From Methanothrix sp. (GTDB taxonomy: Archaea; Halobacteriota; Methanosarcinia; Methanotrichales; Methanotrichaceae): a DNA stretch of 43,917 nucleotides. A model generated the notes under the pieces. That model was not told where the DNA came from, made no database searches, and was given only the letters and a program-made list of their open reading frames with translations. The DNA lies in NCBI RefSeq assembly GCF_026419855.1, contig NZ_JAOAKP010000010.1, positions 1-43,917 on the forward strand, in the 5' to 3' direction. Position 1 is the stretch's first letter. Each line of letters starts with the position of its first letter. The translations under genes were made by a program, and so were the position numbers. This document shows, piece after piece, positions 3,424 to 4,898 of this stretch.

Positions 3424-3987
3424 TCAGATCACCCCCTTCGTGCTCAGAACCCCGGGCGATCCCGGCTCCACGGCGCTGCGGATCGCGAGCCCTAGCGCCT
3501 TGAATATGCTCTCTGCGATGTGGTGGTCGTTCTCCCCCTCGAACCTTACGTGTAGCGTCAGCCTTCCGCAGTCAGTGATGCCTTTAAGCATCGCTTTTAT
3601 CTCGAAGGCGTTCAGGTCCCCGATGATCTCCCCGTGAAACGATCCTTTCATCACCAGGTACGCCCTTCCGCCGAGATCCAGGGCCACCTCCGCAAGCGCA
3701 TCGTCCATTGGAATGGCTGCAAACCCGTATCTTCTTATCCCGCTCCTCTCGCCCAGCGCCTGATCGAGCGAAGCCCCAATCACCGATCCCAGGAGCGAGT
3801 ACCTGTAAAGGGAGTTTCCGCCAGCGGATGCGCTGATGTCGATCGACCCCAGCTTTGCCATCGAATGGAGCATGTGGTCCATGAATCCTGAGCCTGTGGA
3901 GGCGTTCGCGGCTCCGCTGCCATCGAGGTTCACCTCAGCGGTCGCAAACGCGCCCATCTTGCAGATCTCAGATCTGCCTGTGCGCAT
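3424..3987 (-). CDS. hisB: HisB-like imidazoleglycerol-phosphate dehydratase, first metal motif missing
   Basis: A 187-residue homologue of imidazoleglycerol-phosphate dehydratase, the sixth step of histidine synthesis. The fold markers are present: STGSGFMDHML, GIRRYGFAAIPMDDALAEVALDL, the GEIIGDL segment and the C-terminal metal motif ENDHHIAES. The equivalent first motif, normally DHHTxEDxGIxLG, reads LYRYSLLGSVIGASL, so the first pair of histidines and the acid are gone although the length is normal. Catalysis is therefore doubtful. The start at 3987 (MRTG...) matches the family. A GTG at 4023 overlaps the stop of the upstream gene (GTGA) and would add 12 residues. A second, intact hisB may exist elsewhere. 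Confidence 0.8.
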   Translation of the reverse strand: MRTGRSEICKMGAFATAEVNLDGSGAANASTGSGFMDHMLHSMAKLGSIDISASAGGNSLYRYSLLGSVIGASLDQALGERSGIRRYGFAAIPMDDALAEVALDLGGRAYLVMKGSFHGEIIGDLNAFEIKAMLKGITDCGRLTLHVRFEGENDHHIAESIFKALGLAIRSAVEPGSPGVLSTKGVI

Positions 3988-4019: not shown

Positions 4020-4682
4020 TCACAGCCAGCCCTTGCTCTTCCAGTACTCATACTCGTGCGTCCAGGCGTCCCTGTTCATGCTCACGAGAGCTTTAAACCT
4101 GGATTTCATCTCATCGTGAACCCTGTCCTGCTCAGGGTAACGTCTCCTCTCTGTGATCGCATGCACCAGATCCACTCCGAGCTCGCGAGCCCTCTTCTCA
4201 GCATCTTCCATCGATCCCGGGATGGCCGGCGCCCCTCCTGCGCCGCCAACATATGATGCCCCGAATCCAACTATTATCCTGCCCAGATAATCGAGGACCT
4301 CATCGTATGCCTGACCGCCGGCAGTGGCCACAGCGCATCCGTACTTGCCAAGGAGAAGCTGGCAGTGTACCGCATCCGCCATCCTGTCTATGAGCGTCTT
4401 GAGCTGGGCAGTCACACTCCTGAAGTAGTTAGGAGAGCCGATGACAAAGCCATCGCATTCGAGGATCTTTTTGTATATCTGATTGAAGTCATCCTTATGC
4501 GTGCACTCGCCCTTTGCATAGCAGACTCCGCATGCGTTGCAGTACTCTATTCTCAGCTTACACACATCCACCATCTCGACCTCAGCTCCCTCTGATCTGG
4601 CGCCATCAAGCGCCGCCCTGACGAGCCTCAGGGTCTGGCTCCTCTCCCCTCTGGGGCTGGAGTTTATGCCAAGTACCTTCAT
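4020..4682 (-). CDS. Iron-sulfur flavoprotein (Isf family, NADPH-dependent FMN reductase fold)
   Basis: A 220-residue flavodoxin-like protein. It starts with the FMN phosphate-binding stretch MKVLGINSSPRGERSQT and carries the compact cluster motif CNACGVCYAKGEC near residue 48. This spacing (CX2CX2CX5C) is typical of the archaeal iron-sulfur flavoproteins that hold FMN and a [4Fe-4S] cluster and pass electrons from ferredoxin, with suggested roles in oxygen or peroxide defence. GSPNYFRSVTAQLKTLIDR is the conserved flavin-side loop. The frame is open further upstream, but ATG 4682 begins the conserved fold and follows GGTGGTGA. The gene ends overlapping a possible GTG start of hisB. Confidence 0.85.
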   Translation of the reverse strand: MKVLGINSSPRGERSQTLRLVRAALDGARSEGAEVEMVDVCKLRIEYCNACGVCYAKGECTHKDDFNQIYKKILECDGFVIGSPNYFRSVTAQLKTLIDRMADAVHCQLLLGKYGCAVATAGGQAYDEVLDYLGRIIVGFGASYVGGAGGAPAIPGSMEDAEKRARELGVDLVHAITERRRYPEQDRVHDEMKSRFKALVSMNRDAWTHEYEYWKSKGWL

Positions 4683-4898
4683 TCTCACCACCTGGAGATA
4701 CAGGCAGAGATCTGTATCGTAGACGGATGTAACCGACAGGCATATCAACTTTTGGCGCGATCTGCAGAGCTGGAACATCTGCGCCATCTTGGGCGCAGCC
4801 CCCTCTATGGGCAGAACCTCCGGTAGAATTCGCATCCCGAGGGATGAAGATCAAAATTGCCGGTATGCTTTGCACACACCGGCGCTGGTTGGCCTGAT

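Follow-up and report, generated by a model that had tools for sequence, protein, structure and literature searches.

Can a HisB homologue that has lost its first metal-binding motif still act in histidine synthesis, and if so, in what form? The question is raised by an open reading frame in the window, by which we mean the whole stretch of 43,917 nucleotides that was analysed, from a Methanothrix sp. of the family Methanotrichaceae (GCF_026419855.1, NZ_JAOAKP010000010.1). This family consists of methanogenic archaea that live on acetate. The window lies within contig C11; the genome has 1.9 Mb in 147 contigs and is 99.9% complete. HisB, the imidazoleglycerol-phosphate dehydratase (IGPD), is a textbook enzyme and a herbicide target, and its pathway is thought to have been conserved since the last common ancestor. 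Known IGPDs are homo-24-mers with both HHxxE motifs in every chain, whereas here one motif is found in each of two proteins. According to the survey passage of PMC7284861, HHXXE is present in all 535 IGPDs covered, 81 of them archaeal. The analysis below indicates that the protein encoded in the window most likely still acts in histidine synthesis, as half of a two-subunit enzyme.

The window gene lacks more than one motif

The window gene, for which we coin the name HisB-alpha (hereafter alpha), has an open frame and translates into a full-length IGPD homologue (Table 1). It aligns to all 144 positions of the Pfam IGPD family (PF00475; E 3e-41, 141 bits, cut-off 27) and stays below every NCBIfam HisB equivalog cut-off, the best model giving 161 bits where 231 are required. 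A longer reading from a GTG at 4023 is a possible alternative start; at the aligned 3987 position, ATG, GTG or TTG is present in 44/47 alpha relatives.

In alpha, LYRYSLLGSVIG occupies the site of the DxHHTxED of IGPDs, and ENDHHIAES is found near the C-terminus. A sequence-only reading of this DNA had noticed that the first HHxxED cluster is absent and ENDHHIAES present, and both the translation and the 47 alpha relatives bear this out. The loss exceeds that description, since alpha is additionally without the histidine equivalent to H138 of 6FWH and without the N-terminal TxET. The motif-1 segment measures 18-20 residues in the 47 alpha proteins vs 23 in 40/40 standard HisBs, a shortening by 3-5 residues, and in the 47-sequence alignment no conserved replacement cluster of His or Glu was found in the shortened loop.

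The same reading had held that there is no frameshift and no sequencing error. In fact, the loss is in-frame and common to 47/47 alpha proteins, and chance or sequencing error are excluded because all alpha-type relatives have it. A compensated frameshift that would account for the lost motif was also considered and rejected; the other two frames, inspected by eye, hold no DHHTxED, and the 47 relatives are in-frame. A decaying or a repurposed enzyme had been suggested instead. The lost metal motif is what a decaying HisB might show, but the loss is fixed in 47/47 relatives and dN/dS within the genus averages 0.13, which refutes recent decay; we give this explanation practically no credence. 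Repurposing holds in a limited sense at most, as most of the substrate and metal residues are kept and hisA is adjoined in 37/47 loci.

Table 1. Location of the two HisB homologues, of neighbouring genes and of active-site positions of alpha. Positions are those of the window unless another locus is named; residue numbers and roles are those of 6FWH as given in the active-site passages of PMC6029752, except E21.
Feature	Position	Strand	Observation
HisB-alpha, IGPD homologue without motif 1	3424..3987	minus	187 aa, ATG at 3987
Beta, HisB homologue	contig C67 of the window genome (G000), L033:1784-2329	minus	181 aa, Pfam IGPD match
E21 (A. thaliana catalytic Glu, TxET), aligned position	3952..3954	minus	Gly, by alignment
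DHML, kept; H40, Mn1 ligand, chain A	3868..3879	minus	H40 in 47/47 alpha, 0/47 beta
LYRYSLLGSVIG, replaces motif 1; H66, H67, E70, chain A' ligands	3775..3810	minus	Loop shortened
Arg, kept; R92, phosphate, chain C	3730..3732	minus	47/47 alpha, 0/47 beta
Asp, kept; D101, water on Mn2, chain A	3703..3705	minus	47/47 alpha, 0/47 beta
Arg, kept; R114, phosphate, chain C	3664..3666	minus	47/47 alpha, 2/47 beta
Ala at H138 (Mn2 ligand, chain A'), lost	3595..3597	minus	His in 0/47 alpha, 47/47 beta, 39/40 standard
ENDHHIAES, motif 2, kept; H162, H163, E166, chain A	3508..3534	minus	47/47 alpha
Lys, kept; K170, phosphate, chain A	3499..3501	minus	47/47 alpha, 5/47 beta
STKG of C-terminal loop, kept; S191, K193, chain C	3433..3444	minus	46/47 alpha, 0/47 beta
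Flavodoxin-type FMN reductase look-alike	4020-4835	minus	By eye
150-aa ORF beside beta	contig C67 of the window genome, L033:2326-2778	minus	Overlaps beta start

A second homologue with the complementary loss

The sequence-only reading had proposed looking for a second hisB in the genome and for the altered motif in relatives. The Pfam IGPD search returned exactly two matches in the window genome, alpha and a second homologue on contig C67, which we call beta (a name likewise coined here). No third, standard HisB was found there, either by this search or by one with the alpha alignment. As for the relatives, the altered motif is conserved in 47/47 alpha proteins and none has the motif intact.

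Beta scores 97 bits against Pfam IGPD (cut-off 27) and is also below the NCBIfam HisB equivalog cut-off. It keeps motif 1 as GDHHLVEDVGI, with LDDIL in place of DHML and GGDDREKIVSSM in place of motif 2, and its STKG tail is absent. In its losses beta is the mirror image of alpha, with DHM, the C-terminal STKG loop, the second HHxxE and the arginines that bind phosphate all gone. In addition, the loop of R92 has 15-16 residues in 46/47 beta proteins vs 21 in standard HisBs.

The pair was found in one family only

A Pfam IGPD search of 50 Methanotrichaceae genomes gave at least one match in 50/50 and two in most of them. Both genes are present in 44/50; three genomes have alpha only (G002, G018 and G039) and three beta only (G004, G023 and G034). 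No standard HisB was found among the Pfam IGPD matches inspected across the 50 genomes. Of the 11 genera in the family, 10 are represented among the alpha genes read, and the loss is fixed in all of these genes; the eleventh genus is represented by G004, which has beta only. HisD was found in 50/50 genomes, in 49 of them over the cut-off, and the histidine pathway is therefore present in the family; the window genome also has HisA and HisF-type genes.

Of the six genomes with a single type, G002, G039, G023 and G034 are the less complete ones, and G018 (alpha) and G004 (beta) are near-complete. G004 is without a hisA orthologue as well as alpha, and a contig is therefore probably missing. The absence of beta from G018 is unexplained and counts against an obligate pair.

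Outside the family, a search of the class covered 237 genomes, the 50 above and 187 others, 176 of which have a match and 11 none. Besides the reference HisBs described below, the standard residues are present in eight more genes of full or nearly full length, which come from two additional families, and in all gene fragments that were checked. Three genomes (G077, G140 and G161) have two matches each, which are complementary pieces of a single standard gene. The phylum was sampled evenly with 392 genomes, and the beta alignment found a match in 372 of them; two matches occur in family genomes only (13 of the 14 sampled), and the 358 matching genomes outside the family have one. Thus, neither the class search nor the 392-genome phylum sample yielded a split HisB pair outside the family. 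A search with beta of contigs from 84,980 species found 105 relatives, and the best 80 of these 105 comprise 41 of beta type and 39 standard ones. All but one of these 41 beta-type loci carry the titles Methanothrix, Methanosaeta, Methanocrinis, Methanotrichaceae, Methanosarcinales or Euryarchaeota. The remaining one (L155), titled bacterium UBP9_UBA1432, has a Methanotrichaceae-type beta with a PurP neighbour and is probably mislabelled.

Active-site ligands are divided between alpha and beta

The active-site passages of PMC6029752 place the site of the A. castellanii enzyme (6FWH) at a two-fold axis, where chains A, A' and C meet. Mn1 is bound by H67 of A' and by H40, H162 and E166 of A; Mn2 is bound by H66, E70 and H138 of A' and by H163 of A; and D101 of A holds the metal-bound water. 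The phosphate is bound by K170 of A, by R92, R114, S191 and K193 of C, and through water by H48 of A. We compared these positions, by alignment to 6FWH, in 47 alpha and 47 beta proteins from the 50 family genomes, with two duplicate loci and a 74-aa fragment (L111) excluded. As the standard reference we used 40 HisBs, fetched from among the 176 matching genomes of the class that lie outside the family.

One HHxxE motif per chain was counted in 47/47 alpha and in 47/47 beta proteins, and two in 40/40 standard HisBs. Alpha has H40, R92, D101, R114, H162, H163, E166 and K170 in 47/47 proteins, and S191 and K193 in 46/47, the exception (L009) ending at a contig edge; H66, H67 and H138 are found in 0/47, and alpha is without four of the eight Mn ligands. 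In beta, H66, H67, E70 and H138 are present in 47/47 and D71 in 46/47, with H40, R92, D101, H163, S191 and K193 in 0/47 and only occasional occurrences of H162 (1/47), R114 (2/47) and K170 (5/47). The 40 standard HisBs have all these residues in 40/40, save H138 (39). The short motifs follow the same lines: DHM/DHL and STKG are each present in 46/47 alpha and 0/47 beta, and TxET in 0/47 alpha, 47/47 beta and 40/40 standard proteins, the single aligned Glu column of the last being Glu in 8/47 alpha.

Across the two sets of 47 sequences the partition is almost perfect, and some positions depart from it. H48 was lost in both types (0/47 alpha, 0/47 beta) and is the sole tested ligand of chains A and C, as assigned in the passages cited above, that alpha misses. 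The Glu column of motif 2 (E166) is still Glu in 31/47 beta proteins. The aligned E70 column is Glu in 16/47 alpha proteins, which is probably a coincidence of the alignment. In standard HisBs, 73 alignment columns reach a conservation of ≥95%; both types retain 12 of them, alpha alone 18, beta alone 10 and neither type 7, the other 26 being mixed.

From these residue sets, and with the chain assignments of the 6FWH passages, alpha can therefore serve as chains A and C and beta as A', and neither can serve as both. As read from the sequences, the split follows chain role and not gene half, with H40, in the first half, going with alpha and H138, in the second half, with beta. The idea that the gene was simply divided, one part coding for the N-terminal and one for the C-terminal half, was accordingly rejected, since each protein has the full length and the distribution of H40 and H138 contradicts it.

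The catalytic glutamate needs separate consideration. In the passages of PMC4509728 on the A. thaliana enzyme, E21 is the acid-base catalyst, its change to Gln abolishes activity, and a figure legend labels Glu21 as chain A. If this label is taken literally, alpha should carry TxET, yet it is beta that does, which counts against the split model. Judging by the two-fold pseudosymmetry within the monomer, we infer that E21 comes from A', hence from beta, which agrees with the sequences; in the 6FWH passages, D101 of A sits with motif 2 of its own chain, and E21 should by analogy accompany motif 1 of the chain to which it belongs, A'. The placement of chain C relative to chain A was not found in the passages of the IGPD literature that were searched.

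Gene neighbourhood

Alpha lies 89-186 bases downstream of a hisA match, on the same strand, in 37/47 loci, and the window genus is one of the exceptions. The position upstream of alpha, taken by hisA in most other genera, is occupied in the window by a flavodoxin-type FMN reductase look-alike, 32 bases upstream on the same strand.

Beta adjoins a PurP-like gene in 27/41 contig loci, some of the others ending at a contig edge; one representative of this gene was tested and passes the NCBIfam cut-off for formate-phosphoribosylaminoimidazolecarboxamide ligase. Beta and the PurP-like gene are divergent (L141, L142, L144-L146, L148, L149, L151, L154 and others among the 27). PurP acts on AICAR, a by-product released by the histidine pathway. 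At the beta locus of the window genome, CobZ and CobS genes are located downstream, and a 150-aa ORF, without a match to any Pfam or NCBIfam family, overlaps the beta start by four bases (ATGA).

Such neighbours invite the explanation that alpha works as an IGPD by itself, through a rearranged metal site, and that beta is a repurposed paralogue with an unrelated role, for example in cobalamin or purine metabolism. Alpha does keep nearly all substrate-binding residues and mostly adjoins hisA, and in the window genome CobS and CobZ-like genes are found close to beta. However, alpha is without TxET and without four of the eight Mn ligands, with no conserved His/Glu cluster replacing them, and beta retains precisely the ligands that alpha misses, for which a repurposed paralogue has no reason. 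Moreover, the CobS/CobZ setting is not general, the PurP-like neighbour being found in 27/41 beta loci. We regard this explanation as quite improbable.

Fold, selection and phylogeny

AlphaFold models of single chains have a mean pLDDT of 93.1 for alpha and 93.5 for beta. Against solved IGPDs, VIA-align gave Z 29.9 and an rmsd of 1.2 over 178-179 residues for the alpha model, and Z 28.6 and an rmsd of 2.6 over 176 residues for the beta model. For alpha and beta alike, the top 21 PDB entries are IGPDs and the following row has a Z below 9. Both proteins are under purifying selection, with a mean dN/dS within the genus of 0.13 for alpha and 0.18 for beta (Nei-Gojobori, 15 pairs each). Perhaps neither protein is still an IGPD, and an unrelated enzyme does the step or histidine is taken up; in line with this, no NCBIfam HisB equivalog cut-off is reached by alpha or beta. 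Nonetheless, HisD occurs throughout the family, HisA and HisF-type genes accompany it in the window genome, both proteins are under the selection just described, and the residues retained are those that bind IGP and Mn. This makes the loss of the IGPD function very improbable in our estimate.

The pairwise distances of alpha and beta are correlated (r 0.89 over 44 genomes). In a quick tree, alpha forms one clade and beta another, each with a support of 100 and on a long stem (0.72 and 0.79), a pattern that fits a single duplication before the family radiated. The same tree places beta weakly beside L178/L241 (support 86) and warns of long branches meeting; transfer is a possible alternative origin of beta.

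The proposed two-subunit enzyme

Taking these observations together, the best explanation, and in our judgement a very probable one, is that alpha and beta form an obligate hetero-oligomeric imidazoleglycerol-phosphate dehydratase. From the sequences we infer that the two proteins associate physically, that they are active together and that they probably build an alpha12-beta12 particle.

The proposed route begins with a homomeric IGPD, in which two identical chains at each two-fold would make two sites, each with half of its ligands from either chain. In the ancestor of Methanotrichaceae, duplication of a single gene would have given two copies, each of which would then have shed the half that it did not need at one of the two sites. 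With the chain roles of the 6FWH passages, alpha would act as chain A at the alpha-beta two-fold (H40, D101, H162, H163, E166, K170) and beta as chain A' (H66, H67, E70, H138 and presumably the TxET glutamate that serves as acid-base catalyst). The role of chain C (R92, R114, S191, K193) would fall to a neighbouring alpha. Both halves would be gone from the mirror-image site on that axis, and of the two sites at each two-fold one would be live and the other dead. In the alpha12-beta12 particle, alpha3 and beta3 trimers would take alternate corners of the octahedral cage, with tetrahedral symmetry and 12 live sites. A cube of eight trimers is two-colourable, and therefore every two-fold can join alpha with beta. 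This alternating arrangement is the predicted exact architecture.

The assembly may be real and still differ from this picture, with random mixing within trimers, a ratio other than 1:1, or beta being mainly regulatory or structural. In favour of this, beta is without the C loop and the arginines. On the other hand, the full set of metal ligands exists only at an alpha-beta two-fold, and the four metal ligands assigned to chain A' in the 6FWH passages are strict in beta, where regulation alone needs none. We consider such departures unlikely. It is rather likely, in our view, that the whole family swapped the homo-24-meric HisB, universal elsewhere, for a two-gene alpha12-beta12 tetrahedral cage with 12 live and 12 dead sites, through complementary loss of the shared di-manganese halves.

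Relation to known systems

Alpha and beta share the full-length fold of the homomeric IGPD (HisB/HISN5, PF00475; 6FWH, 4MU0-4MU4, 2F1D, 5DNL), and jointly they hold nearly the whole conserved set of the active site, with alpha mostly adjoining hisA. An active site shared by a catalytic protein and a degenerate paralogue is known from the trypanosomatid S-adenosylmethionine decarboxylase with its prozyme and from PRPP synthetase with its associated proteins. These systems have in common with the present case a duplication, the degeneration of one copy and a hetero-oligomer that is important or obligatory. They differ in that here each subunit would give a different half of a di-metal site and neither would be solely catalytic or regulatory. 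In the open-licence full-text literature, no description of a split, heteromeric or pseudoenzyme HisB was found, Methanosaeta/Methanothrix included.

If the two-gene cage is real, it would be the first heteromeric form of HisB and would give, from nature, a clean example of an obligate heteromer that arose by complementary loss inside a symmetric metalloenzyme. A lineage without any single protein carrying the whole set would mean that the two half-sites are divisible between genes. With close outgroups that have the ancestral homomer, the pair would offer a simple system for testing how homomers turn into obligate heteromers by complementary loss. In practice, automatic annotation would give Methanothrix two 'HisB' genes, neither of which should work alone.

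Standard hisB genes of other families

Two observations concern standard hisB genes met in the searches. In two genomes of another family of the class (G050 and G051; loci L274 and L273), the single standard hisB carries an in-frame TAG at the same codon and is otherwise intact; this TAG is possibly recoded, perhaps as pyrrolysine. In another family, a four-contig genome (G161) has a standard hisB that is broken up over two frames (contig C2, about 1469226-1469653; L277, L281).
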